From Actinomycetes bacterium (lineage in GTDB: Bacteria; Actinomycetota; Thermoleophilia; Solirubrobacterales; 70-9): a stretch of DNA of 64,000 nucleotides. The translations under genes were made by a program, and so were the position numbers. Shown piece by piece: positions 47,956 through 63,667 of this stretch (its first letter is position 1; the number at the start of each line of letters is the position of its first letter). The stretch lies in the NCBI GenBank assembly GCA_016861045.1, contig BOKP01000001.1, positions 1 to 64,000 on the forward strand, given 5' to 3'. Under the pieces are notes generated by a model. The model was not told where the DNA came from, did no database searches, and saw only the letters and a program-made list of their open reading frames with translations.

Positions 47956-48546
47956 ATGGCGAGCACGGAGGAGGCTCTTCGCCCGCCGCCCGCCGCCGGC
48001 CGGCGGGCGCTGATCGAGGCCGCGGTCCGGGTGGTCGGCGACGGCGGGCTGCGCCGGCTCACCTACCGCGAGGTGGCGCGGGAGGCGGGCGTCACCCAGG
48101 GGCTCGTCTCCCATCACTTCGGCTCGCGGGCGGAGCTGATCCGGGCCGCGCTCGAGCACGCATCGCGAACCTCGCTGGCGCGCTCGCCGATCGAGCCGCC
48201 TCCGGGCCGGCTCGAGGACCTCTCCGCCGGGCTCGCCGAGCGCGTCGCCGATGCTCCCGGCGAGGAGGCCTTCCAGTTCGAGATCGCCCTCGAGGCACGC
48301 CGCCGCGCCGATCTCGCCCCGCTCGCCGTCGAGCTCTACGACGGGTACCTGGAGGCGACCGCCCGCGCGCTCGACGCCGTCGACGTCCCCGGCGACCCCG
48401 ACCTCGCCCGGCTCGTCTTCGCCGCGATCGACGGCCTCGCCTTCCAGCAGCTCGTCACCGGGGATCGGGCCGGGACGACGCGTTCGCTGGCGATCCTGCA
48501 CGAGATGCTCGCCGTGGTCCGCGACCGCGGCGGCGAAAGGAGATGA
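47956..48546 (+). CDS. TetR-family transcriptional regulator
   Basis: LTYREVAREAGVTQGLVSHHFGSRAELI. Confidence 0.93.
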   Translation: MASTEEALRPPPAAGRRALIEAAVRVVGDGGLRRLTYREVAREAGVTQGLVSHHFGSRAELIRAALEHASRTSLARSPIEPPPGRLEDLSAGLAERVADAPGEEAFQFEIALEARRRADLAPLAVELYDGYLEATARALDAVDVPGDPDLARLVFAAIDGLAFQQLVTGDRAGTTRSLAILHEMLAVVRDRGGERR

Positions 48547-48547
48547 G

Positions 48548-50641
48548 ATGAGCGCCTCCCGCTTCGACGTCCTCCTCGAGCCGATCGAGATCGGGCCCCT
48601 CACGGCCCGGAACCGGTTCTTCCAGGTCCCGCACTGCAACGGCATGGGCTACCGGGACGTGAGCGCCCACGCCGAGATGCGCGCCGTCAAGGCCGAGGGC
48701 GGCTGGGCCGTGATCTGCACCGAGCAGGCCGAGATCCACCACAGCTCCGAGATCACGCCGTTCATCGAGCTGCGCGCCTGGGACGATCGCGACCTCCCGG
48801 CCATGGCCCGGATCGCCGAGCGGATCCACGACGGGGGCTCGCTGGCCGGGATCGAGCTCTGCTACAACGGCATGAACGGGCCGAACCTCTACAGCCGGGT
48901 CGCGCCGATGGGCCCAGCGCACCTGCCCGTCGCCACCTTCACCGCCGATCCGGTCCAGGCCCGGCGCATGGACAAAGGCGACATCGCCGACCTGCGCCGC
49001 TGGCACCGCGAGGCGGTGCGGCGCTCGCTGACCGCCGGCTACGACCTCGTCTACGTCTACGCGGGCCACGCGCTCGGCGGCATCCACCACTTCCTCTCGC
49101 CCCGCTACAACGACCGCACCGACGAGTACGGCGGCCCGATCGAGAACCGGATGCGCCTGCTGCGCGAGGTGCTCGAGGACACGATCGAGGAGGCCGGCGG
49201 CCGGGCCGCGGTCGCCTGCCGGATCACGGTCGACGAGCTGCTCGGCGACGAGGGGATCACCCGTGCCGAGATCGGCGAGGTCGTCGAGGCGCTCGGCGAG
49301 CTCCCCGACCTCTGGGACTTCGTGCTCGGCAGCTGGGAGGACGACTCGGTCACCTCGCGGTTCGGCGAGGAGGGCGACCAGGAGGCCTACGTGCGCGGGC
49401 TCAAGGCGCTGACCACCAAGCCGGTCGTCGGCGTCGGCCGCTTCACCTCCCCCGACACGATGGTGCGGATGGTCCGCTCCGGGGTCCTGGACCTGATCGG
49501 CGCCGCCCGCCCGTCGATCGCCGACCCCTTCCTGCCGAAGAAGATCGAGGAGGGCCGGCTCGAGGACATCCGCGAGTGCATCGGCTGCAACATCTGCGTG
49601 TCGGGGGACTTCACCGCGACTCCGATCCGCTGCACCCAGAACCCGTCGATGGGCGAGGAGTGGCGGCGCGGCTGGCACCCGGAGCGGATGCGGCCGCGCG
49701 GGACCGACGCCAAGGTGCTCGTGATCGGCGGCGGGCCGGCGGGCCTCGAGGCCGCCCAGGCGCTCGGCAAGCGCGGCTACGAGGTGATCCTCGTCGAGGC
49801 CGACCGCGAGCTCGGGGGGCGGGTCCGGCGGGAGGCGAGGCTTCCGGGGCTGTCGGCCTGGATCCGCGTCGTCGACTACCGGGTCGGGCAGATCGAGCGG
49901 CTCGCGAACGTCGACGAGGCGCGCGACGAGGTGACCGCCGACGAGATCCTCGCCTACGACTTCGACCACGTCGCGATCGCGACCGGGTCGCGGTGGCGCG
50001 GCGACGGCGTCGGCCGCCACCACACCCGCCCGATCCCGCTCGACTCCGGGCTGCCGGTGCTGACCCCGGACGACCTGATGGCCGGCGAGCGCCCGGCGGG
50101 CCGGGTCGCCGTCTATGACGACGACCACTACTACATGGGCGGCGTCCTGGCCGAGCTGCTGCGAGCCGAGGGCCGCGAGGTGACGCTCGTCACCCCCGGA
50201 GCCTGTGCGTCGAGCTGGACGGCGGCGACGATGGAGCAGCACCGGATCCAGGCGCGGCTCTTGGAGCTCGGGGTTCGGATCGAGGCCTCGCGAGCGGTGA
50301 TCGCGACCACGGCGCGGGGCGTGGCGACGAGCTGCGTCTTCACCGGCTCCGAGCGCGAGATCGACTGCGACGCGGCGGTGTTCGTCACCGCACGCCTGCC
50401 CGAGGAATCGCTCTACCGGGAGCTCCTCGACCGCCGTGACGAGTGGGCGGACGCCGGCCTGCGGACGGTCAAGGCGGTCGGCGACTGCTGGTGTCCGGGC
50501 ACGATCGCCGCCGCCGTCTGGGAGGGCCACCGCTACGCCGAGGAGCTCGACGAGCCCGAGGCCGACGCCGCGCTGCCGCTCCGCGAGGTCACCGAGCTGG
50601 CCGACGCGGGGGCCGCCGTGCGGCTTCGGGCGCCGGCCTGA
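48548..50641 (+). CDS. NADH:flavin oxidoreductase, trimethylamine/dimethylamine dehydrogenase-like (FMN, 4Fe-4S)
   Basis: CIGCNICVSGDFTATPIRCTQNPSMGEEWRRGWHPE cluster motif; GGGPAGLEAA. Confidence 0.85.
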   Translation: MSASRFDVLLEPIEIGPLTARNRFFQVPHCNGMGYRDVSAHAEMRAVKAEGGWAVICTEQAEIHHSSEITPFIELRAWDDRDLPAMARIAERIHDGGSLAGIELCYNGMNGPNLYSRVAPMGPAHLPVATFTADPVQARRMDKGDIADLRRWHREAVRRSLTAGYDLVYVYAGHALGGIHHFLSPRYNDRTDEYGGPIENRMRLLREVLEDTIEEAGGRAAVACRITVDELLGDEGITRAEIGEVVEALGELPDLWDFVLGSWEDDSVTSRFGEEGDQEAYVRGLKALTTKPVVGVGRFTSPDTMVRMVRSGVLDLIGAARPSIADPFLPKKIEEGRLEDIRECIGCNICVSGDFTATPIRCTQNPSMGEEWRRGWHPERMRPRGTDAKVLVIGGGPAGLEAAQALGKRGYEVILVEADRELGGRVRREARLPGLSAWIRVVDYRVGQIERLANVDEARDEVTADEILAYDFDHVAIATGSRWRGDGVGRHHTRPIPLDSGLPVLTPDDLMAGERPAGRVAVYDDDHYYMGGVLAELLRAEGREVTLVTPGACASSWTAATMEQHRIQARLLELGVRIEASRAVIATTARGVATSCVFTGSEREIDCDAAVFVTARLPEESLYRELLDRRDEWADAGLRTVKAVGDCWCPGTIAAAVWEGHRYAEELDEPEADAALPLREVTELADAGAAVRLRAPA

Positions 50642-50705
50642 TCGCGGCGCCCCCTGCCGACGGGGCCCGGCGCGTACCCGGGGCGGGGCCCGCCGCCGGG
50701 CAGGG

Positions 50706-51671
50706 TCAGCCGGCTCGTCGCAGGGCGATGCCGGTCAGGATCTCGCGGACGATCCGGTCGCCGACGAGCGCGGTCGGGTCGCGGGAGCCGACCGCGGTCG
50801 GGGCGACCTCGACGACGTCGGCGCCGACCAGCGCGAGGCCCGCGGCGCCGCGGCGGCAGGCACCGAGCAGCTCGGCCGAGGTCAGGCCGCCGGGCTCGGG
50901 AGTTCCGGTCCCCGGCGCGAAGGCCGGGTCGAGGGCGTCGACGTCGACGGTCATGTAGGCGGGGCCGGTGCCGATCGTCGCGACCGCGCGCCGCACCACC
51001 TCGTCGATCCCGCGCTCGCGGACGTCGTGGATGAAGAAGGAGGTGATCCCCCGCTCGCGCTGCCAGCCCATCTCGGCCTCGCCGGGCCAGTAGCCGCGCA
51101 GGCCGACCTGCACGTATCGCCGCGGATCCACGCAGCCCTCCTCGACCAGGAGCCGCATCGGCGTCCCGTGCGTGACCCGCACGCCGAGCTCGTCCTCGCC
51201 GGTGTCGGTGTGGGTGTCGAAGTGGATCAGGCCGAGCGGACCGTGCGCGGCGGCGCAGGCGCGGATCGCGGGCAGCGAGATCGAGTGGTCGCCGCCGAGG
51301 AGGAGGGGGAGGGTGTCGCTCGCGACCACCTCCGCGACGGTCTCCTCGACCGCCCGATGGGAAGCGGCGGCATCGAACGGGATCACCGGCGCGTCGCCGA
51401 AGTCGACGATGCGAAGCCGCTCGAAGGCGTCGACGCCGGCCTCGAGATGGGGGCCGTGCTCGACCCCCGCGGCCCGGATCGCGCGCGGCCCCCAGCGGGC
51501 GCCGGCGTCGAGGCCCGCGAGCCCGTCGAACGGCGCCCCGACGATCGCGACGTCGAAGTCCGCGAGCTCGGCCGCGTCCTCGGTCAGCGGCAGCCCGCCG
51601 TAGGTCAGGATCCCGGCGAAGTCGGGCTTGTATCCGTGCTCCCGCCAGCGCCGGCTCGGGTCGAAGATCAT
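50706..51671 (-). CDS. Agmatinase/ureohydrolase family protein
   Basis: LLGGDHSISLP, HFDTHTDT, VDVDALDPAFAPGTGTPEPGG. Confidence 0.92.
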   Translation of the reverse strand: MIFDPSRRWREHGYKPDFAGILTYGGLPLTEDAAELADFDVAIVGAPFDGLAGLDAGARWGPRAIRAAGVEHGPHLEAGVDAFERLRIVDFGDAPVIPFDAAASHRAVEETVAEVVASDTLPLLLGGDHSISLPAIRACAAAHGPLGLIHFDTHTDTGEDELGVRVTHGTPMRLLVEEGCVDPRRYVQVGLRGYWPGEAEMGWQRERGITSFFIHDVRERGIDEVVRRAVATIGTGPAYMTVDVDALDPAFAPGTGTPEPGGLTSAELLGACRRGAAGLALVGADVVEVAPTAVGSRDPTALVGDRIVREILTGIALRRAG

Positions 51672-52114: not shown

Positions 52115-52921
52115 TCAGGAGGTCGGGCCGCCGAGCTGGGCCTCGCCGTCGCGGGCGGCGGCGAGGACGAGGCGGGCGAGGTCGCGTCCTGTCGACTTCG
52201 AGTAGCGCGCGGCGGGCGCCGCCAGCCCGACCGAGGCGACCGGCTGGCCGTTGACGAGGATCGGCGCCGCCAGGCCCCAGGCGTCGGCGTTGTTCTCCTG
52301 GTAGCTCGAGGCCCAGCCGCGACGGCGGATCCTCGCCAGGTCCCTCCGCAGCTCGGCGGGATCGGTGATCGTTCCCGGCGCGAGCTTCTCCAGCGGCTGC
52401 GCGAGGACGTCGGCGATGACCTGCTCGTCGAGGAACGCGAGCAGCGCCTTAGCCGAGGCGCCGGCGTGGATCGGGGTGACGCGGCCGATCTGGATCGTCA
52501 GCCGGAGGTCGTGGGTGGCCTCGATGCGGTCGATGCAGAGCGAGCCGTGGTGGGCCTTGTCGTAGACGTTCAGCAGCACCGTCTCGCCGGTCGCCCGGCT
52601 CAGGTTGCGCAGCACCGGCGCCAGCCGTGAGCGAAGGTCGACGGAGGCCATCGCGCGGCGGCCGAGGTCGACGGCGGCGAAGCCGAGCCGGTAGCGGGAG
52701 TTGATCCGGGTCAAGTAGGAGCGGCCCTCGAGCGCGCGGATGATCCGGTGCGTGGTCGCGGTCGGCATCCCGAGCTCGCGGGCGATCTCGCTCACCGACC
52801 AGGACGGGCGCTCGACCGTGAACAGGTCGAGCACGCGCAGCGCCTTCTCGAGGACCTTGGGGCCGGCCGGGACGGGGGCGGCGCGTCGCGGCGCCTTCTT
52901 CCTGCTCGTCGTTGGCTCCAT
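52115..52921 (-). CDS. IclR-family transcriptional regulator
   Basis: WSVSEIARELGMPTATTHRIIRALEGRSYL; IclR effector domain. Confidence 0.93.
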   Translation of the reverse strand: MEPTTSRKKAPRRAAPVPAGPKVLEKALRVLDLFTVERPSWSVSEIARELGMPTATTHRIIRALEGRSYLTRINSRYRLGFAAVDLGRRAMASVDLRSRLAPVLRNLSRATGETVLLNVYDKAHHGSLCIDRIEATHDLRLTIQIGRVTPIHAGASAKALLAFLDEQVIADVLAQPLEKLAPGTITDPAELRRDLARIRRRGWASSYQENNADAWGLAAPILVNGQPVASVGLAAPAARYSKSTGRDLARLVLAAARDGEAQLGGPTS

Positions 52922-52973
52922 CTCAGCGGCCTCGTGAATCGGGGTTGCGATTCCGGGCGGGCATGTTATCGTA

Positions 52974-53010
52974 TCCCCACAACGTGGGAACGTTTATCAC
53001 ATCGTGGTAA
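52974..53010. promoter_or_regulatory. Tandem IclR-type operators, TCCCCAC-AAC-GTGGGAA and TTATCAC-ATC-GTGGTAA
   Basis: Centres 20 bp apart, in divergent iclR/SDR intergenic region. Confidence 0.65.
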
Positions 53011-53033: not shown

Positions 53034-53873
53034 ATGGCAGACGACGTGACCTCGGAGACCGCGCCGGTTCCGACCCGGGAGCGGCCGCTCGACCTCTATG
53101 GGAAGGTCGCGATCGTGACCGGCGCCGCGAAGGGGATGGGCGGCCCGATCTGCAGGGCGCTGGCCGAGGAGGGGGCGGACCTCGTCCTCGCCGGCCGCGA
53201 CATGGACGCGATCGAGGCCCACGCGGATGCGCTCGGCACCGATTTCCCCGACACCGACCGCCTGACGGTCCGCTGCGACGTCACCGAGGAGGCCGACACG
53301 AAGGCGCTCGCGGCGGCGGCGCTGGACCGGTTCGGGAAGATCGACATCCTCGTCAACACCGCCGGCGTGATCGGGCCGATCGAGACCCCGGCCCGGGACT
53401 ACCCGGTCGACGACTTCAAGTTCGTCCTCGACGTCAACGTCGTCGGCACGTTCCTCCCGAGCAAGGCGGTGATCCCGTCCCTGATCGACGGCGGCGGCGG
53501 CCGCATCGTCAACATCGCCGGCACCTCCGGCCTGCGCGGCTACCGCAACCGGGTCGGCTACTCGTCCTCGAAGTGGGCCGTCCGCGGCCTCACCAGGACG
53601 CTCGCGCTCGAGCTCGGCCCGCACGACATCACCGTCAACGCCGTCTGCCCGAACGTGACCAACGGCGAGCGGATGGACAAGATCGTCAGCGGCAAGGCGG
53701 AGCGGCTCGGCAAGACCTACGACGAGGTCTACGCCGACTTCGCCTCGCAGACCGCGCTCGGCCGGTTCATCGACGAGGTCGACATCGCCGAGGCCGTTCG
53801 CTTCCTCGTCTCCGACCGGGCCCGCAACATCACCGGTCACGACATCGTCGTCGACGCGGGGTGGGACGTCTGA
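53034..53873 (+). CDS. SDR-family oxidoreductase
   Basis: VTGAAKGMGGPICRAL, NTAGV, YSSSKWAV. Confidence 0.93.
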   Translation: MADDVTSETAPVPTRERPLDLYGKVAIVTGAAKGMGGPICRALAEEGADLVLAGRDMDAIEAHADALGTDFPDTDRLTVRCDVTEEADTKALAAAALDRFGKIDILVNTAGVIGPIETPARDYPVDDFKFVLDVNVVGTFLPSKAVIPSLIDGGGGRIVNIAGTSGLRGYRNRVGYSSSKWAVRGLTRTLALELGPHDITVNAVCPNVTNGERMDKIVSGKAERLGKTYDEVYADFASQTALGRFIDEVDIAEAVRFLVSDRARNITGHDIVVDAGWDV

Positions 53874-53874
53874 G

Positions 53875-54747
53875 GTGTTCCCGCGCCCCTTCGACTACGC
53901 GCGTCCGGACAGCGTCGACGAGGCGCTCGCGGCGCTCGCCGCCAACCCCGGGGCCCGCCCGCTCGCCGGCGGCCAGAGCCTGGTGCCGATGATGAGCCTC
54001 GGGCTCGCGGCGCCGGACCTGCTCGTCGATCTCGCGCGGCTGCCGCTCGCCGGCAGCGAGAACGGCGGCGGCAGCGTCAGGCTCGGCGCCCTGACCCGGC
54101 ACCGCGAGCTCGAGCGCAGCGCCGAGCTCGCCGCACGGGCCCCGCTCGCGAGCGAGGCCGCGCGCTTCATCGGCAACCCGCGGGTCCGCAACCGCGGCAC
54201 GCTCGGCGGCAGCCTCAGCCACGCCGACCCCGCCTCCGAGCTCGGCACGGTCGCGCTCGCCTACGGGGGCCAGGCCGTCATCGCGGGCGCCGGCGGCGAG
54301 CGCACGGTCGACCTCGACGAGTTCTTCGCCGGCTTCTTCGAGACGGCGGTGGGCGCCGGCGAGCTCCTGACCGCCGTCGAGCTCGACGTCCCCGGGGCCG
54401 GCAGCGGCCACGGCTTCCACGAGGTCGCCGGCCGCGCCGACGACTTCGCGACCGCGGCCGCCGCCGCGGTCCTCACCCTCGACGGCACGGGCGCCGCCTG
54501 CGCCACCGTCCGGCTCGCGCTCGCCGGCGTCGGCGACCGACCGCTTCGGGTCGAGGCGGGCGAGGCGGTCTGCGCCGGCGCCGCGATCGACGCCCCGCTC
54601 CTCGGCCGCCTCGCCGACGCGGTCGCCGACGCGGTCAGCCCCGAGGACGACGCCTTCATCTCCGCCGGCTACAGGAAGCGCGTGGCCGGAGCCTGCGCGG
54701 CCCGCGCCGTCGAGAGCGCCTGGACGCGGGCGCGGGAGGCGGCCTGA
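53875..54747 (+). CDS. Molybdenum hydroxylase FAD-binding subunit (CoxM/XdhB-like)
   Basis: RPLAGGQSLVPMM, NPRVRNRGTLGGSLSHADPASEL. Confidence 0.93.
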   Translation: MFPRPFDYARPDSVDEALAALAANPGARPLAGGQSLVPMMSLGLAAPDLLVDLARLPLAGSENGGGSVRLGALTRHRELERSAELAARAPLASEAARFIGNPRVRNRGTLGGSLSHADPASELGTVALAYGGQAVIAGAGGERTVDLDEFFAGFFETAVGAGELLTAVELDVPGAGSGHGFHEVAGRADDFATAAAAAVLTLDGTGAACATVRLALAGVGDRPLRVEAGEAVCAGAAIDAPLLGRLADAVADAVSPEDDAFISAGYRKRVAGACAARAVESAWTRAREAA

Positions 54748-55298
54748 TGGAGGTCGGGTTCACGCTCAACGGGAAGGCGCGGCGGCTCGACGTCCCCGCC
54801 CACTGGACGCTGCTGCGGATGCTCCGCGACATCGCCGGCAGCACCGACGTCAAGCACGGTTGCGGCGAGGGCGTCTGCGGCGCCTGCGCGGTCCTCGTCG
54901 ACGGCGTCGCGATGAACTCCTGCTCGGTCCTGGCGCCGCAGGTCGACGGCGCGACCGTCGAGACGGTCGGCGGCCTCGCGGCGGGCGGCAAGCTGCATCC
55001 GCTCCAGGCCGAGATGGTCATGCGCGGCGGCGTCCAATGCGGGTTCTGCACGCCCGGGATGGTGCTGAGCGCGCTCGAGGCGGTGCGGATCGGCGCCGCC
55101 GGGAGCGACGAGGAGATCCGCCACAGCCTCGCCGGCAACCTCTGCCGCTGCACCGGCTACGGCAAGATCGTCGACGCCGTCGCCGCCTATCGCGACGGCG
55201 AGGCCCCCGATGACGTTCCGGCCGACGCGGGCGAGCACGAGCACCGGCCCGAGGGCGGCGGCAGCGCCGCTTCGCCGGGCGTGGGGGTGGGGCATTGA
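54747..55298 (+). CDS. Molybdenum hydroxylase [2Fe-2S] subunit (CoxS/XdhC-like)
   Basis: GCGEGVCGACAVLVDG, CGFCTPGM, NLCRCTGY. Confidence 0.95.
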   Translation: MEVGFTLNGKARRLDVPAHWTLLRMLRDIAGSTDVKHGCGEGVCGACAVLVDGVAMNSCSVLAPQVDGATVETVGGLAAGGKLHPLQAEMVMRGGVQCGFCTPGMVLSALEAVRIGAAGSDEEIRHSLAGNLCRCTGYGKIVDAVAAYRDGEAPDDVPADAGEHEHRPEGGGSAASPGVGVGH

Positions 55299-57610
55299 GC
55301 GACGTCGAGGTCGAGGCCGGCAGCCGCATCGTCGGCGCGGGGATCGCCCGCCACGACGCGGTCGAGAAGGTCCAGGGGCAGACGGTGTACGCGGCCGACT
55401 TCGCGCTGCCGCGGATGCTGCACGCGATGCTGAAGCGCTCCGACTACGCGCACGCGCGGCTGCGCGGCGTCGACGTCTCCGCCGCCGAGGCGATCGACGG
55501 CGTCGTCGCCGTCTACACCGCCGCCGACGTCCCCCAGAACACGGTCTGGGTCGACGTGCCGGGACAGACGCTCGAGGTCGGCGCCCTGAAGGCGCGCTCG
55601 AACGTGCTCGCCGACGAGGTCGTCCGCTACCACGGCGAGCCGGTCGCGCTCGTCGCCGCCGAGTCCGAGGACGCGGCGCTGGCCGCGGTCGACGCGATCG
55701 TCGTCGACTACGAGCCGCTGCCGGTCGTCGACGACCCCGAGCACGCGCTCGACGACGACGCCCCCGACCTGCACGAGAGCGGCAACCTGCTCGCGCACTG
55801 GGAGATCGAGGAGGGCGAGGTCGAGGCCGGCTTCGCCGGGGCCGCGGCGGTGGTCGAGGAGGAGTACCGGACGCAGTTCATCGACCACGCCTACCTCGAG
55901 CCCGAGGCGGGCGTCGCCTGGCGGGACACCGACGGGGTGATCACGATCCGCGCCGCCACCCAGGTGGTCGAGCACTTCCGCGACGTCGCCCGGATCCTCG
56001 AGCTGCCCGACAACAAGGTGCGGCTGATCACTCCCTACGTCGGCGGCGGCTTCGGCGGCAAGGAGGACATGACCGTCGAGCCCTACCTCGGGATCGTCGC
56101 GGCGCTGACCGGCCGGCCGGTGCGGATGGTCTGGAGCCGCCAGGAGTCGCTGACCGCGCGCCAGAACCGCCACGCGGTGCGGATGCGGTACCGGACCGGG
56201 GCCGACGCCGAGGGCCGTCTCGTCGCGATGGACATCGACATCCTCTCCGACGGCGGCGCCTACGCGCTGCTCAGCGCGCTCGTCCTGCTCTACTCGACGA
56301 CCTGTGCCGCCGGCCCCTACCGCTGCCCGAACGTGCGGATCAGCGCCCGCACCGTCTACACCAACCACACGCCTTGCAGCGCGATGCGCGGGTTCGGCGG
56401 CATGCAGGTCGCGCTCGGCTACGAGGGGCAGATGGACCGCCTCGCCCGCGAGCTCGGGATCGACCCGCTCGAGATCCGCCGCCGCAACTTCGTCGAGCGC
56501 GGCGACAGGCTGCCGATCGGCCAGGAGCTGGAGACCGTCGTCGAGCTGCCGGCGCTGGTCGAGGCGGTCGGCGAGCGGGCCGGCGAGCGGCCGGAGCCGA
56601 GCGGCCCGCGGCGCGCGGTCGGACGCGGCTACGCCTGCAACCTGCAGTCCTACGGCCGCTGCATCTGGCTCAACGACTGGTCGAGCGCCTGGGTCGGCTT
56701 CGAGCTCGACGGGACGCTCGTGATCCGGATCGCCGTCCCCGACATCGGCGGCGGCCAGGCGTCGTCGCTGATCCAGATCGCCTCCGAGGTGCTCGGCGTC
56801 CCGCCGCAGCGGGTCACGATCCACATCGGCGACTCGGCGCTGAACCCGCTCACCGGCACGACGACGGCGACCCGGCAGCTCTACATGTCCGGCAACGCCG
56901 TGCTCAAGGCCTCCCGGGAGCTTCGCGACGCGCTCGCCGGCGTCGCCGCGGGGCTCCTCGAGGTCGACGCCGAGCGGGTCGAGTTCGGCCCCGACGGGGT
57001 CAGCGGGGGCGGCGCCAGCGTGTCGTTCGAGAAGCTCCTCGCCGCCGCGGCCTCGGTCGACGTGCCCTGGCACGTCCTCGCCACACACCACGCTCCGAAG
57101 GGGATCCCCTGGCAGGCCGACGAGAGCTGGCGCGGGCGGGTCTTCCCCGACTTCACCTACGGCTGCCACGCGGTCGACGTCGAGGTCGACCTCGACACCG
57201 GCGGGGTCCGGCTGCTGCGCTACATCGCCGGCCACGACGTCGGCCGGGCGATCAACCCGGTCTCGGTCGAGGGCCAGATCGAGGGCGCGGTCGCGATGGG
57301 GCTCGGCTACGCGCTCTCGGAGCGGATCGTGTTCGAGGAGGCGCAGAACCTGTCGACGACGTTCTCCCAGTACCTGATCCCGACCGCGGTCGAGATGCCT
57401 CGGATCGAATCGCTGGTGCTCGAGAGCGGCGAGGGGATGGGGCCGTTCAACGCCCGCGGGATCGGCGAGCCCCCGATCGGCCCGCCGGCGCCCGCGGTCG
57501 CGGCCGCGATCCACGACGCCTGCGGGGTCGCGCTGACCGAGCTGCCGTTCACGCCGGAGCGGGTGGCGACCGCGATCGCGGTCGCGGGGGGTGGCGATGG
57601 CGCGGGTTGA
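55295..57610 (+). CDS. Molybdenum hydroxylase large subunit (xanthine dehydrogenase/CoxL-like)
   Basis: YVGGGFGGKEDMTVEP, MRGFGGMQ, GIGEPPIGPPAPAVAAAI; TTG start. Confidence 0.93.
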   Translation: MSDVEVEAGSRIVGAGIARHDAVEKVQGQTVYAADFALPRMLHAMLKRSDYAHARLRGVDVSAAEAIDGVVAVYTAADVPQNTVWVDVPGQTLEVGALKARSNVLADEVVRYHGEPVALVAAESEDAALAAVDAIVVDYEPLPVVDDPEHALDDDAPDLHESGNLLAHWEIEEGEVEAGFAGAAAVVEEEYRTQFIDHAYLEPEAGVAWRDTDGVITIRAATQVVEHFRDVARILELPDNKVRLITPYVGGGFGGKEDMTVEPYLGIVAALTGRPVRMVWSRQESLTARQNRHAVRMRYRTGADAEGRLVAMDIDILSDGGAYALLSALVLLYSTTCAAGPYRCPNVRISARTVYTNHTPCSAMRGFGGMQVALGYEGQMDRLARELGIDPLEIRRRNFVERGDRLPIGQELETVVELPALVEAVGERAGERPEPSGPRRAVGRGYACNLQSYGRCIWLNDWSSAWVGFELDGTLVIRIAVPDIGGGQASSLIQIASEVLGVPPQRVTIHIGDSALNPLTGTTTATRQLYMSGNAVLKASRELRDALAGVAAGLLEVDAERVEFGPDGVSGGGASVSFEKLLAAAASVDVPWHVLATHHAPKGIPWQADESWRGRVFPDFTYGCHAVDVEVDLDTGGVRLLRYIAGHDVGRAINPVSVEGQIEGAVAMGLGYALSERIVFEEAQNLSTTFSQYLIPTAVEMPRIESLVLESGEGMGPFNARGIGEPPIGPPAPAVAAAIHDACGVALTELPFTPERVATAIAVAGGGDGAG

Positions 57611-58244
57611 CGGCAGCGAGACCCTGTCCCTGCCCCGCGAGCGGGTCTGGGCCCTGCTCAACGACCCGGAGGTCCTCGGCGCCGCGATCCCGGGCTGTCA
57701 CGGGCTCGAGCGCGAGGAGGGGGAGGAGCATCGCTACCGGACGGCGATCGCCGTCGCGGTCGGCGCCGTCACCGGCGTCTACGAGGGCACGGTGCTCTAC
57801 GCCGACATCGAGGAGCCCGAGCGCTGCACGATCAGGGTCTCGGGCCGGGGCGACAAGGGGACGATCGACGGCCAGGGGGAGATCGAGCTGCTCGAGGCCG
57901 GCGACGACACCGAGGTCGCCTACCGCGGCGAGTTCAAGCTGACCGGGCCGGTCGCCGGGATCGGGCAGCGGCTCGCCCCCGGCGTCAGCCGGAAGATGAT
58001 CATCGAGACGCTCCGCAACCTCGAGCGCAGCGGCGCGGCGCCGCAGCCGGCCGGAGCCGGCGAGCCCTCCGCCCCGGAGGGCGCCCGCGGCGCCCGCCCG
58101 ACCGCGGCCCCGGCGGGGAGGGCCGCCGCCGCGCCGCCGCCGCGCGAGGTCGAGCCCTTCGACCCGGTCCCCGCCTGGGTCCGGCCGGTCGGCCTGCTCG
58201 CGCTCGGGCTCGTGATCGGCTTCGTGATCGGGAGGCTCGTGTGA
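57597..58244 (+). CDS. CoxG-like SRPBCC protein with C-terminal TM
   Basis: LPRERVWALLNDPEVLGAAIPGC; C-terminal hydrophobic anchor. Confidence 0.9.
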   Translation: MARVDGSETLSLPRERVWALLNDPEVLGAAIPGCHGLEREEGEEHRYRTAIAVAVGAVTGVYEGTVLYADIEEPERCTIRVSGRGDKGTIDGQGEIELLEAGDDTEVAYRGEFKLTGPVAGIGQRLAPGVSRKMIIETLRNLERSGAAPQPAGAGEPSAPEGARGARPTAAPAGRAAAAPPPREVEPFDPVPAWVRPVGLLALGLVIGFVIGRLV

Positions 58245-58248
58245 GTTG

Positions 58249-58287
58249 TTCTCACGATGTGAGATGGCCTTTCTGCGAAGTGAGAAA
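58249..58287. promoter_or_regulatory. Candidate IclR operators: TTCTCAC-GAT-GTGAGAT plus second GTGAGAA half-site 21 bp downstream
   Basis: Same motif and phasing as at 52974-53010. Confidence 0.6.
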
Positions 58288-58342
58288 CGAGCTAGGATGG
58301 CCGCAGCCATGCGACTGAGCGGAGGCTGACGGGGAGCGCGAG

Positions 58343-59848
58343 ATGGCCACGGCGACACACACCCACGAGGAGTGGCGGTCGCTCGCCGCCGCGCTCGAGC
58401 CGGGCGCCGGAGCGGTGATCGGCGGCGAGCTCGCCGCCGCCGCCTCGGGCGAGACCTTCGCATCGGTCAATCCGGCGACCGGGGAGACCCTGGCCTCGGT
58501 CGCTGCCGGCGACGCCGAGGATGTCGATCGCGCCGTCCGCTCCGGTCGCGCGGCGTTCGAGTCCGGCGCCTGGTCCGAGGCTGCGCCGGCCGACCGCAAG
58601 TCGGCGCTGCTGCGGCTGGCCGAGCTGATCGACGGCGACCGCGACCGGCTCGCCCTGCTCGACTCGCTCGACATGGGCAAGCCGGTCGAGGACGCGGCCA
58701 CCGTCGACGTCCCCGGCGCCGCCGGGCTCTTCCAGTGGTACGGCGAGGCGGTCGACAAGCTCTACGACGAGATCGCGCCGACCGGCCCCGGCGACCTCGC
58801 GATGGTGAGCCGGGAGCCGCTCGGCGTCGTCGGCGCCGTCGTGCCCTGGAACTTCCCGCTCGACCTCGCCGCCTGGAAGGTGGCGCCGGCGCTCGCCTGC
58901 GGCAACAGCGTCGTCCTCAAGCCGGCCGAGCAGTCGCCGCTGTCGGCGATCCGGCTCGGCGAGCTGGCGCTCGAGGCCGGCATCCCGGCCGGCGTCCTCA
59001 ACGTGGTCCCCGGCTTCGGCGAGACCGCCGGCCGTGCGGTCGGCCTCCACCCGGACGTCGACTGCGTCGCCTTCACGGGCTCGACCGACGTCGGCAGGCT
59101 GTTCCTCTCCTACTCCGCCGAGTCGAACGCGAAGCCGGTCTGGCTCGAGTGCGGGGGCAAGAGCCCCAACCTCGTCTTCGCCGACGTCGCCGACCTCGAC
59201 GCCGCGGCCGACATGGCCGCGTTCGGGATCTTCTTCAACCAGGGCGAGGTCTGCTCCGCGAACTCGCGCCTGCTCGTCGAGCGCTCGATCCACGAGGAGC
59301 TGGTGGAGAAGCTCGTCGAGCGGGCGCGCTCGACCGCGGTCGGCGACCCGCTCGATCCGGCGACGCGGATGGGCCCGCTCGTCGACGAGGGGCACGCGGC
59401 CCGGGTGATGTCGTTCATCGAGGGCGCCGGCGACGACGCCGAGCTTCGCACCGGCGGCGAGCGGTTCGCACGCAACGGCTCCGGCGAGACGTTCGTCGCG
59501 CCGACGATCTTCGACCGGGTCCCGAGCGGCGCCCGGCTCGCCCAGGAGGAGGTCTTCGGGCCGGTCCTCGCCGTGCTCGCCTTCGACGACGAGGAGGAGG
59601 CGACCGCGACCGCGAACGCGAGCCGGTTCGGGCTCGCAGCGTCGATCTGGACCTCGAACCTCGATCGCGCCCACCGGCTGGCGCGACGGCTGCGGGCGGG
59701 CACGGTCTCGGTCAACACCGTCGACGCGCTGAGCCCGCAGACCCCGTTCGGCGGCTTCAAGGGCTCGGGCTTCGGCCGTGACCTCTCGCTGCACGCGATC
59801 GACAAGTACACGGGCTTGAAGACGACCTGGATCAAGTACGGACCATGA
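58343..59848 (+). CDS. NAD(P)-dependent aldehyde dehydrogenase
   Basis: VVPWNFPLDLAAWK, FTGSTDVGR, ECGGKSPNLVF, FNQGEVCSANSR. Confidence 0.93.
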   Translation: MATATHTHEEWRSLAAALEPGAGAVIGGELAAAASGETFASVNPATGETLASVAAGDAEDVDRAVRSGRAAFESGAWSEAAPADRKSALLRLAELIDGDRDRLALLDSLDMGKPVEDAATVDVPGAAGLFQWYGEAVDKLYDEIAPTGPGDLAMVSREPLGVVGAVVPWNFPLDLAAWKVAPALACGNSVVLKPAEQSPLSAIRLGELALEAGIPAGVLNVVPGFGETAGRAVGLHPDVDCVAFTGSTDVGRLFLSYSAESNAKPVWLECGGKSPNLVFADVADLDAAADMAAFGIFFNQGEVCSANSRLLVERSIHEELVEKLVERARSTAVGDPLDPATRMGPLVDEGHAARVMSFIEGAGDDAELRTGGERFARNGSGETFVAPTIFDRVPSGARLAQEEVFGPVLAVLAFDDEEEATATANASRFGLAASIWTSNLDRAHRLARRLRAGTVSVNTVDALSPQTPFGGFKGSGFGRDLSLHAIDKYTGLKTTWIKYGP

Positions 59849-59873: not shown

Positions 59874-60902
59874 ATGAGGACCAAGGTGAAGCGGACCAGG
59901 GCCGTCGGCGCCGGCCTGCTGGCGGCGCTGCTGGCGGCGCTGCTGGTGGCCTGCGGCGGCGATGACTCGACCGACGGCACGTCGGCGGACGACTCCGGCG
60001 CGCCGACCGAGGTGGCGATCGGCACGACGACCTGGATCGGCTACGGGCCGCTCTGGATCGCCGACGACCAGGGCTTCGACCTCGACAACGGCGTCGACAT
60101 CAAGATGGTCAACTTCACGACCGACCAGGACCTCGAGTCCGGGTACGCCGGTGGCAAGTTCCAGGGGTTCAGCATCGCCACCAACAACCAGATCCGCCTC
60201 GCCGACCTCGACATCGACTTCGAGGTGGTGCTGATGGAGGACTTCTCGCTGACCGCCGACTCGATCGTCTCCTGCAACCCGCAGATCAAGTCGATCGACG
60301 ACCTCGCGGGCGCCAAGGTGGCGTTCGAGGAGCTCTCCGTCTCCGACCTGCTGCTCCGCTACGCGCTCGAGCAGGCAGGGATCGGCTTCGACGAGATCGA
60401 GTACGTACCGATCCCGGCGGCCGACGCCGGCACCGCCGCGGTCGCGGGCAAGGTCGATGTCGCCGTCACCTACGAGCCCTACCTGCAGGCGGCGCTCGAC
60501 GAGGGCGACGACTGCAAGATCATCTTCTCGGCCGAGGAGCGGCCGGGCCTGATCTCCGACCCGCTCAGCTTCAGCCCCGACTTCATCGAGTCGAACCCGG
60601 ACGCGGTCGTCGGCGTGCTTCGGGCCTGGGATGACGCGGTCGAGTTCTACAACTCGAACACCGAGGAGGCGCAGGCGATCGTCGCCGAGGCGGTCGGCGA
60701 GAAGCCCGACGCACTGGCCTCGAGCTTCGACGGCATCAAGCTGTTCAGCCTCCAGGAGTCGCAGGACTTCCTCGAGAACGACTTCGTGCCGCTCTGGGAC
60801 GACATCGGCCAGATCATGGTCGACCAGGGACAGATCGAGGAGGTTCCGGACGCCGAGGACCACCTGAACACCGACATGGGCCAGCAGGCCCTCGAGGGGT
60901 GA
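59874..60902 (+). CDS. ABC transporter substrate-binding lipoprotein (NitT/TauT, NMT1-like)
   Basis: Lipobox LVAC; WIGYGPLWIADDQGFD. Confidence 0.9.
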   Translation: MRTKVKRTRAVGAGLLAALLAALLVACGGDDSTDGTSADDSGAPTEVAIGTTTWIGYGPLWIADDQGFDLDNGVDIKMVNFTTDQDLESGYAGGKFQGFSIATNNQIRLADLDIDFEVVLMEDFSLTADSIVSCNPQIKSIDDLAGAKVAFEELSVSDLLLRYALEQAGIGFDEIEYVPIPAADAGTAAVAGKVDVAVTYEPYLQAALDEGDDCKIIFSAEERPGLISDPLSFSPDFIESNPDAVVGVLRAWDDAVEFYNSNTEEAQAIVAEAVGEKPDALASSFDGIKLFSLQESQDFLENDFVPLWDDIGQIMVDQGQIEEVPDAEDHLNTDMGQQALEG

Positions 60903-60986
60903 TCGACGGGACCGCGATGGAGGATGGGCGCGGCTTGCGCCGGAGTGCCCAATGAAGACCAGTCACACCAACACGAAGGGAACCCA

Positions 60987-62015
60987 ATGGAGGTCAAGGT
61001 GAAAGGGATCAGAGCCCTGGGGGCAGGACTTCTGACGGTGCTGGCGGCGGCGTTGCTCGCGGCCTGCGGCGGCGACGATTCCACCGACGGCACGTCGGCC
61101 GATGGCGCGCCGACCGAGGTGGCGATCGGGACCCAGCCGTGGATCGGCTACGGCCCGCTGTGGGTCGCCGACGATCAGGGGTTCGACCTCGACAACGGCG
61201 TCGACATCAAGATGGTCAACTTCTCGACCGACCAGGACCTCGAGTCCGGGTTCGCGAGCGGCAAGTTCCAGGCGGCGAGCAACGCGAACAACACGTACAT
61301 CCGCCTCGCCGATCTCGGCATCGATTACGAGATCACGCTGATGGAGGACTTCTCGCTGACCGCGGACGCGATCGTCTCCTGCAACCCGCAGATCAAGTCG
61401 ATCGACGACCTCGAGGGCGCGAGCGTCGCGTTCGAGGAGTTCTCGGTCTCCGACGTGCTGTTCCGGTACGCCCTGAACGAGGCCGGCATCGATTTCGACT
61501 CGATCGACTACTCGCCGATCCCGGCCGCGGACGCCGGCACGGCTGCGGTCGCCGGTCGCGTCGACGTCGCGGTGACCTACGAGCCGTACCTGCAGGCCGC
61601 CATCGAGGAGGGCGACAACTGCAAGATCATCTACACGGCCGAGGAGCGGCCGGGGCTGATCTCGGACGCGCTCGCGTTCACCCCCGACTTCGTCGAGTCG
61701 AACCCCGACGCGGTGATCGGCGTGATGAAGGCCTGGGACGACGCGGTCGACTTCTACAACTCGAACCCCGACGAGGCGCAGGCGATCATCGCCAAGGCGG
61801 TCGGGGAGAAGCCCGACGCGCTCGGCCCGAGCTTCGAGGGCGTCAAGCTGTTCGACCTGCAGGAGTCGCAGGACTTCCTCGAGAGCGACTACGCGACGCT
61901 CTGGGATGACATCGGCCAGATCATGCTCGACCAGGGCCAGATCAAGGAGGTCCCGGACGTCAACGACTACCTGAACACCGAGATCGGCGCCGAGGCGCTC
62001 GGGTCCTCGGAGTAG
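60987..62015 (+). CDS. ABC transporter substrate-binding lipoprotein, tandem paralogue
   Basis: Highly similar to preceding gene over nearly full length. Confidence 0.9.
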   Translation: MEVKVKGIRALGAGLLTVLAAALLAACGGDDSTDGTSADGAPTEVAIGTQPWIGYGPLWVADDQGFDLDNGVDIKMVNFSTDQDLESGFASGKFQAASNANNTYIRLADLGIDYEITLMEDFSLTADAIVSCNPQIKSIDDLEGASVAFEEFSVSDVLFRYALNEAGIDFDSIDYSPIPAADAGTAAVAGRVDVAVTYEPYLQAAIEEGDNCKIIYTAEERPGLISDALAFTPDFVESNPDAVIGVMKAWDDAVDFYNSNPDEAQAIIAKAVGEKPDALGPSFEGVKLFDLQESQDFLESDYATLWDDIGQIMLDQGQIKEVPDVNDYLNTEIGAEALGSSE

Positions 62016-62021
62016 GAGCCG

Positions 62022-62882
62022 ATGGCGGAGGCGATCAGCAAGACACCGGAGGCCGGGGCCCCGAAGCGGGCCCCGGCCGGCCGGCCTGCCGGGAAGCGGC
62101 GCCGCAAGCTCGCCGGGATCTTCGACCCGATCGAGCCGCGGACGTACATGATCATCGCGCTGCTCTCGTTCGCGGTGCTGTTCTTCGGCTGGTGGGTCGC
62201 GGCCGAGATCGACCTCGCCAAGGACATCTTCCTGCCGAGCCCGGCCGACGTCTGGAACCGCGGCGTCGAGCTGGCCAAGGACGGGACGCTCTGGGCCGAC
62301 GTCAAGGTCAGCTTCGTCCGGATCACGATCGGCTTTCTGATCTCGACCGCGATCGCGCTGCCGATCGGGATCGCGATCGGCACCTACCGGCTCGCCGAGG
62401 CGGCGATCGAGCCGCCCGTGGACTTCATCCGCTACATGCCGGCGGTCGCGTTCCTGCCGCTGACGATCGTCTGGGTCGGCGTCGACGAGAGCCAGAAGTG
62501 GCTCATCATCTTCATCGGCACCTTCTTCCAGCAGGTGCTCCTGGTCATGGACAACGTCAAGCGCGTCCCCCGCGAGTACGTCGACATCAGCCACACGCTC
62601 GGGATGCGCGACCACTCGGTGCTGCGGAAGGTGGTCCTGCCGGCGGCGGCGCCGGCGATCTGGGACACGCTGCGGATCACGCTCGGCTGGGCCTGGACCT
62701 GGCTCGTGATCGCCGAGCTCGTCGCCGCGTCCGACGGCCTCGGGCACCGGATCATCGTCGCCCAGCGCTACTTCCAGACCGACACGATCTTCGTCGGGAT
62801 CCTCGTCATCGGCCTCCTCGGCCTGATCATGGACCAGATCATGAAGTACACCGGAAAGCGGATCTTCAGGTGGGCGGAATGA
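62022..62882 (+). CDS. ABC transporter permease (NitT/TauT/SsuC-like)
   Basis: TM segments; EYVDISHTLGMRDHSVLRKVVLPAAAPAIWDTLRI. Confidence 0.92.
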   Translation: MAEAISKTPEAGAPKRAPAGRPAGKRRRKLAGIFDPIEPRTYMIIALLSFAVLFFGWWVAAEIDLAKDIFLPSPADVWNRGVELAKDGTLWADVKVSFVRITIGFLISTAIALPIGIAIGTYRLAEAAIEPPVDFIRYMPAVAFLPLTIVWVGVDESQKWLIIFIGTFFQQVLLVMDNVKRVPREYVDISHTLGMRDHSVLRKVVLPAAAPAIWDTLRITLGWAWTWLVIAELVAASDGLGHRIIVAQRYFQTDTIFVGILVIGLLGLIMDQIMKYTGKRIFRWAE

Positions 62883-63667
62883 GCGAGGCCAAGCTCTCGG
62901 TTAGCGGCGTCCGCAAGGTCTTCGAGGGCCGCGCGGGCGAGGTCGTCGCCCTCGACGGCGTCGACTTCGAGATCGCCGAGAAGGAGTTCGTCACCGTGAT
63001 CGGGACGAGCGGCTGCGGCAAGTCGACGATGCTCTCGATCATCGCCGGGCTCGAGGAGGAGAGCGAGGGCGAGGTGCTCGTCAACGGCGAGCCGGTCCAC
63101 GGGCCCGGGCGCGATCGCGGCGTCGTCTTTCAGTCCTACACGCTGTTCCCGTGGATGACCGCGCAGAAGAACGTGGAGTTCGCGCTCCACGGCACCAAGG
63201 GCGAGCGGGCCGACATCGCCCGCGAGCACCTCGAGCTGGTCGGCCTCGAGGGCTTCGCCGACGCCTATCCGAGCCAGCTCTCGGGCGGGATGCGGCAGCG
63301 GATCGCGATCGCTCGCGCGCTCTCCTACAAGCCCGAGGTCCTGCTGATGGACGAGCCGTTCGGGGCGCTCGACGCGCAGACGCGCCAGCTCATGCAGGAG
63401 CTCCTGACCCGGATCTGGGAGGAGCACAGGCTGACGGTGATGTTCGTCACCCACGACATCGACGAGGCGGTCTTCCTCTCCGACCGGGTGCTGGTGATGA
63501 CGGCGCGCCCCGGCAGGATCAAGGAGGACATCAGGGTCGGCGTCGAGCGGCCCCGGACCTTCGAGGTGCTCTCGACCCCCGAGTTCTTCGAGTACAAGTC
63601 ACGGCTGCTCGAGGCCGTGCGCGAGGAGAGCCTGAAGACGGCGACTGAGCAGCTCGCCGTGCGATGA
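62879..63667 (+). CDS. ABC transporter ATP-binding protein (NitT/TauT/SsuB-like)
   Basis: GTSGCGKST, LSGGMRQR, VLLMDEPFGALDAQTR. Confidence 0.94.
   Translation: MSEAKLSVSGVRKVFEGRAGEVVALDGVDFEIAEKEFVTVIGTSGCGKSTMLSIIAGLEEESEGEVLVNGEPVHGPGRDRGVVFQSYTLFPWMTAQKNVEFALHGTKGERADIAREHLELVGLEGFADAYPSQLSGGMRQRIAIARALSYKPEVLLMDEPFGALDAQTRQLMQELLTRIWEEHRLTVMFVTHDIDEAVFLSDRVLVMTARPGRIKEDIRVGVERPRTFEVLSTPEFFEYKSRLLEAVREESLKTATEQLAVR

Follow-up and report, generated by a model that had tools for sequence, protein, structure and literature searches.

The 64,000-nucleotide stretch analysed here (the window) carries a palindrome between a CoxG-like gene and an aldehyde dehydrogenase (ALDH) gene, and a similar motif lies 5.3 kb away between the divergent genes for an IclR-family regulator (iclR, minus strand) and a short-chain dehydrogenase (SDR, plus strand). 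The questions are whether the two promoters share an operator, which protein would bind it and what that protein would do there. Very probably, as judged from sequence comparison, one IclR-family regulator governs both units.

Sequence scans

A tandem matrix was built from the two sites of the iclR/SDR promoter only and scanned with a spacing of 19–22 bp, using 200 shuffled windows as the control. The published IclR group-1 consensus WTTYCRYW3RYGRAAW, which is independent of this genome, was searched in the window and some loci. The modules of two close relatives (G048 and G049) were found by inspecting the cluster and were used in training, so that only the absence of modules elsewhere, not their presence in these two, counts as independent of the hypothesis. 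A more distant genome of another genus (G036, 44% identity in the regulator) was excluded from training.

The two transcription units

The likely binder is encoded at 52115–52921 (minus strand). The protein belongs to the IclR family, with HTH_IclR and IclR_C domains above the curated cut-offs (PF09339, E = 2e-14, 53.5 bits against a cut-off of 22; PF01614, E = 1.4e-34, 119.5 bits against 24). The first unit, on the plus strand, is led by the SDR gene (53034–53873), assigned by domain search and from relatives, and continues with the FAD, FeS and Mo subunits of a molybdenum hydroxylase and the CoxG-like gene (53875–58244), assigned by profile searches. The second unit, on the same strand, is led by the ALDH gene (58343–59848; PF00171, E = 2.8e-164), followed by genes for an NMT1/SsuA-like ABC transporter with two substrate-binding proteins, a permease and an ATPase (59874–63667; profile searches).

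Assignment of 55295–57610 as a CO dehydrogenase was rejected, as TIGR02416 (CoxL) gave 275.4 bits against a cut-off of 991.15. The nearest NCBIfam model, that of the pucD xanthine dehydrogenase subunit, scored 533.5 bits against a cut-off of 783.65, and on these profile scores the protein is a Mo hydroxylase of the xanthine dehydrogenase family. The adjoining genes for the two substrate-binding proteins (59874–62015) both match the same single gene of G048 (68 and 76%), which suggests a duplication in this lineage. Beside the regulator, genes for a TetR regulator, a mycofactocin-type OYE-like oxidoreductase and an agmatinase-like ureohydrolase occupy 47956–51671; none of these lies beside the cluster in the stretches of G048 and G049 that were examined.

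Layout of the two promoters

The ALDH promoter (58247–58298) reads TGTTCTCACGATGTGAGATGGCCTTTCTGCGAAGTGAGAAACGAGCTAGGAT. Site A, TTCTCACGATGTGAGAT (58249–58265, plus strand), is a near-perfect palindrome, TTCTCAC-GAT-GTGAGAT, centred at 58257, that starts a few bases past the coxG stop codon. Site B, TTTCTGCGAAGTGAGAA (58270–58286, plus strand; TTTCTGC-GAA-GTGAGAA, centre 58278), has a strong right arm and a degenerate left arm, and the centres of the two sites are 21 bp apart. The palindrome and the GTGAGAA 21 bp downstream are thus as the first-pass annotation had read them. It had called the latter a half-site; the GTGAGAA arm is present, but site B fits the consensus WTTYCRYW3RYGRAAW at 14 of 17 positions over both arms, which is more than a half-site. 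Its dyad symmetry extends to only three of seven positions, and site B is therefore asymmetric and weakly palindromic.

A plausible −10 hexamer, TAGGAT (58293–58298, plus strand), is placed by alignment with TAGATT and TAGGGT in the relatives. The overlap of the second site with this hexamer that had been proposed does not exist, six bases (58287–58292) intervening between them. A consensus sigma-70 scan passed no promoter, so the −10 assignment is drawn solely from conservation. A weak candidate −35 hexamer, TTTCTG (58270–58275, plus strand), falls within site B, 17 bp before the −10 element, and is poor in all three genomes (this one, G048 and G049). A Shine–Dalgarno-like GGGGAG (58331–58336, plus strand) precedes the ALDH start.

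At the iclR/SDR promoter, site A, TCCCCACAACGTGGGAA (52974–52990, plus strand), is kept in G049 and G048; site B, TTATCACATCGTGGTAA (52994–53010, plus strand), lies 20 bp from it and was assigned from conservation and the consensus match. A conserved −10-like TAACAT (52963–52968, minus strand), within ATGTTATC kept in three genomes, would serve iclR, and its position beside the module of iclR itself suggests autoregulation of that gene.

Chance and signal in the genome

The 2.70 Mb of this genome contain a single perfect match to TTCTCACN3GTGAGA. The loose single palindrome (three-mismatch level) was found seven times against 9.5 expected, which is not significant; the case is carried by the tandem arrangement and its conservation, not by the single palindrome. 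The group-1 consensus with up to three mismatches gave three matches in 64 kb against 0.73 expected, all of them in the two promoters.

With the matrix from the iclR/SDR sites only, the ALDH promoter scored 31.0, the top value in 64 kb apart from the training site (shuffle maximum 22.6, n = 200). A matrix from the SDR promoters of the relatives only gave the two promoters of this genome the two highest scores, 34.1 and 29.7, against a shuffle maximum of 22.8. A profile of six modules run against the 2.70 Mb genome returned just the two promoters at E ≤ 10. With a profile from the relatives only, the ALDH module came first in 2.7 Mb (E = 0.03); the iclR/SDR module was missed at E ≤ 10, so the two modules of this genome differ noticeably. 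The concern that the motif might be common genome-wide by chance was thus addressed directly and was not borne out.

Conservation in close relatives

G049 and G048, which belong to the same family but to a different genus, encode a regulator of 70% identity, and its recognition helix is near-identical across the three genomes (PTATTHRIIRALE once and PTATAHRIVRALE twice). The cluster is shared as well (SDR 77–80%, FAD 67%, FeS 81–85%, Mo 83–85%, CoxG 57% and ALDH 74–76% identity). Both tandem modules are present in both relatives with a spacing of 20 bp, against 21 bp at the ALDH promoter of this genome. The claim of matching phasing therefore stands as to the similar tandem spacing, not as to its exact value, which is 21 bp here and 20 bp at the first promoter and in the relatives. 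The counterparts of the ALDH site A are TTATCACGATGCGAGAA (G049) and ATTTCACGATGCGAGAG (G048). Alignment of the ALDH-side promoters shows that the sequence immediately upstream has changed, in contrast to the conserved operator, the −10-like TAG..T and the asymmetric form of site B.

Among 232 genomes of the order, matches to the six-module profile were confined to this genome (G000), G048 and G049, at two modules per genome, and these are the same three that make up the 70% regulator set. The other two genomes of the genus have neither the modules nor a 70% regulator, and a contig scan for the regulator returned only remote relatives (27–35% identity).

The arrangement in G048 shows further features. 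The tandem operator is separated from SDR by an inserted second iclR gene (L026 2548–3315, 40% identical), so that the module is flanked there by two divergent iclR genes; the first of these has an extra single site, TTTTCACGATGTGGACC (L026 2423–2439), overlapping its start. A possible site, TTACCACCATGTGGAAT (L026 18276–18313), which departs from the family consensus at two positions, precedes an amidohydrolase gene by about 20 bp; that gene is a possible third regulon member in G048.

More distant loci

At 11 regulator loci of greater distance, the commonest spacing among high-scoring pairs of sites was 20 bp, with 11 pairs; over the other spacings from 10 to 44 bp there were five pairs at 21 bp, four at 19 bp and 0–4 elsewhere. 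G036 has one module at its regulator gene and a second 92 bp upstream of the start of an SDR gene with 66% identity; on a separate contig with ALDH and CoxSL genes, the best pair is again a module (19.8 against a shuffle maximum of 17.4, n = 200). The spacing in the G036 modules is 20 bp. A module also precedes an ALDH gene in G254 (19.4 against a shuffle maximum of 17.0). The best pair in G359 (L038) scored 13.8, barely at the 95th percentile of the shuffles (13.6), and a control contig of G118, with a 54% identical Mo subunit and without a close regulator, gave no module (scan score 0.0). The leave-out matrices, the footprints in two relatives, the genome-wide restriction of the modules and the untrained genus G036 together support the proposal that the same motif ties the second unit to the first.

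Alternative explanations

That the palindrome is a chance feature without function agrees with the loose single-site matches being at chance level, but is refuted by the tandem, consensus, footprint and cross-genus tests, and we consider it scarcely credible. A little less remote, though still very improbable, is an RNA hairpin acting as a terminator or as an mRNA-end structure of the CoxMSLG operon. Its position just after the coxG stop and a hairpin energy of −6.9 kcal/mol would suit this reading; the relatives, however, break the stem (−2.6 and −1.6 kcal/mol) yet keep the letters of the half-site, and a matching module stands before SDR, a place at which no operon terminates in this orientation. 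Site B does not form a stem, and a terminator search found none.

The operator could be real and shared but belong to another protein, such as the TetR-family regulator at 47956–48546 or an unlinked IclR paralogue, since linkage and co-occurrence leave the identity of the binder unproven. We judge this improbable: the module fits the IclR consensus and spacing, adjoins the divergent iclR gene and occurs in the order only with this IclR, and tblastn with the TetR protein returned no copy at E ≤ 1e-10 in the stretches of G049 and G048 examined. A more serious, though still rather unlikely, variant keeps both operator and regulator, and is in that respect compatible with the preferred explanation; the regulator would act mainly by ligand-dependent activation of the ALDH promoter, as proposed for BhcR at bhcA, and repress only its own gene. 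All three genomes have a poor −35 hexamer, as activator-dependent promoters do, and BhcR, the nearest NCBIfam match, is proposed to act both ways (PMC11323563). Against this, site B sits in a repressor-like place between −35 and −10, with the −10 element beginning right after it.

Comparison with known systems

In 94 orthologous groups of the IclR family, tandem palindromes have been described whose centres lie 18–22 bp apart, and the arrangement has been attributed to a tetramer that places its dimers on one face of the DNA (PMC8222616); the spacings found here (21 and 20 bp in this genome, 20 bp in G048 and G049) fall within that range. With the group-1 tandem operators of subtype WTT-11-AAW (Suvorova and Gelfand 2021, PMC8222616) the modules share 17-bp sites with the core YCRY-N3-RYGR in register, and also two sites with centres 20–21 bp apart near a gene start. 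The four sites of this genome match the core at 8/8, 7/8, 8/8 and 8/8 positions and WTT-11-AAW at 13–14 of 17. The modules differ from the subtype in their outer arms, which are often TTC/GAA or TTA/TAA rather than WTT/AAW (fit 12–15 of 17), and the ALDH-type site B is asymmetric in all three genomes, unlike the group-1 palindromes (PMC8222616).

BhcR of Paracoccus denitrificans (PMC11323563), the best NCBIfam match, likewise combines a divergent regulator with a catabolic operon and has a proposed tetrameric DNA-binding form. The BhcR equivalog model NF045644 gave 138.8 bits for the regulator, below the cut-off of 350. The operon content here differs (Mo hydroxylase, SDR and ALDH), and one palindrome there contrasts with tandem sites at two promoters (PMC11323563). 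The tetramers of TtgV and E. coli IclR on their operators, as cited in PMC8222616 and PMC11323563, provide a model for two dimers on neighbouring sites; TtgV is remote from the present regulator in sequence (E = 1.5e-14).

Proposed mechanism

The sites, their conservation and spacing, their restriction to these promoters and their co-occurrence with the regulator can be read directly from the DNA; binding, the tetramer, repression and the ligand we infer. It is highly likely that the tandem sites are the operator of the IclR regulator at 52115–52921, which would bind as two dimers, probably forming one tetramer, repress the ALDH–ABC promoter and also control iclR/SDR–CoxMSLG. The two dimers would occupy the two 17-bp sites on the same DNA face, about two helical turns apart. 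Repression is favoured because, at the ALDH promoter, site B spans the interval from −35 to −10, where the bound regulator would block RNA polymerase. A pathway metabolite, probably an intermediate, would free the regulator from the ALDH–ABC promoter. At the iclR/SDR module the same binding would give autoregulation and joint control of the SDR, CoxMSL and CoxG genes.

A possible pathway and its significance

In G048 and G049 the ALDH-side operator-promoter drives a class III aminotransferase gene (85% identity between the two) that lies between it and ALDH (L025 2535–3899; L026 8689–10053). The gene is absent from the corresponding 58299–58342 of the window, and nothing close to it occurs elsewhere in this genome (best match 40%). 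CoxG is directly followed by an aminotransferase of 39–40% identity in two genomes from a different family of the class, and because of this gene order, loss in the lineage of the window would be a simpler reading than gain elsewhere. Hydantoinase, amidohydrolase and M20-type genes near the cluster in the relatives hint that the compound degraded may be an N-heterocycle or cyclic amide. A literature search did not find an operon of matching composition.

We tentatively propose an undescribed high-GC regulon, in which an IclR regulator with asymmetric tandem operators would control an unrecognised catabolic pathway (Mo hydroxylase, SDR, class III aminotransferase, ALDH and NMT1-type transporter, with hydantoinase/amidohydrolase-type neighbours in the relatives), perhaps for an N-heterocycle or cyclic amide. 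The aminotransferase would have been lost in the lineage of the window, its operator-promoter now driving ALDH directly.

The mechanism itself is standard for the IclR family, a solid but ordinary bacterial gene switch. What had been a guess becomes a predicted regulon of two promoters, with operator and regulator defined and with bases that can be tested; the regulator and its operator, used as a reporter, would offer a route to the inducer of the pathway.
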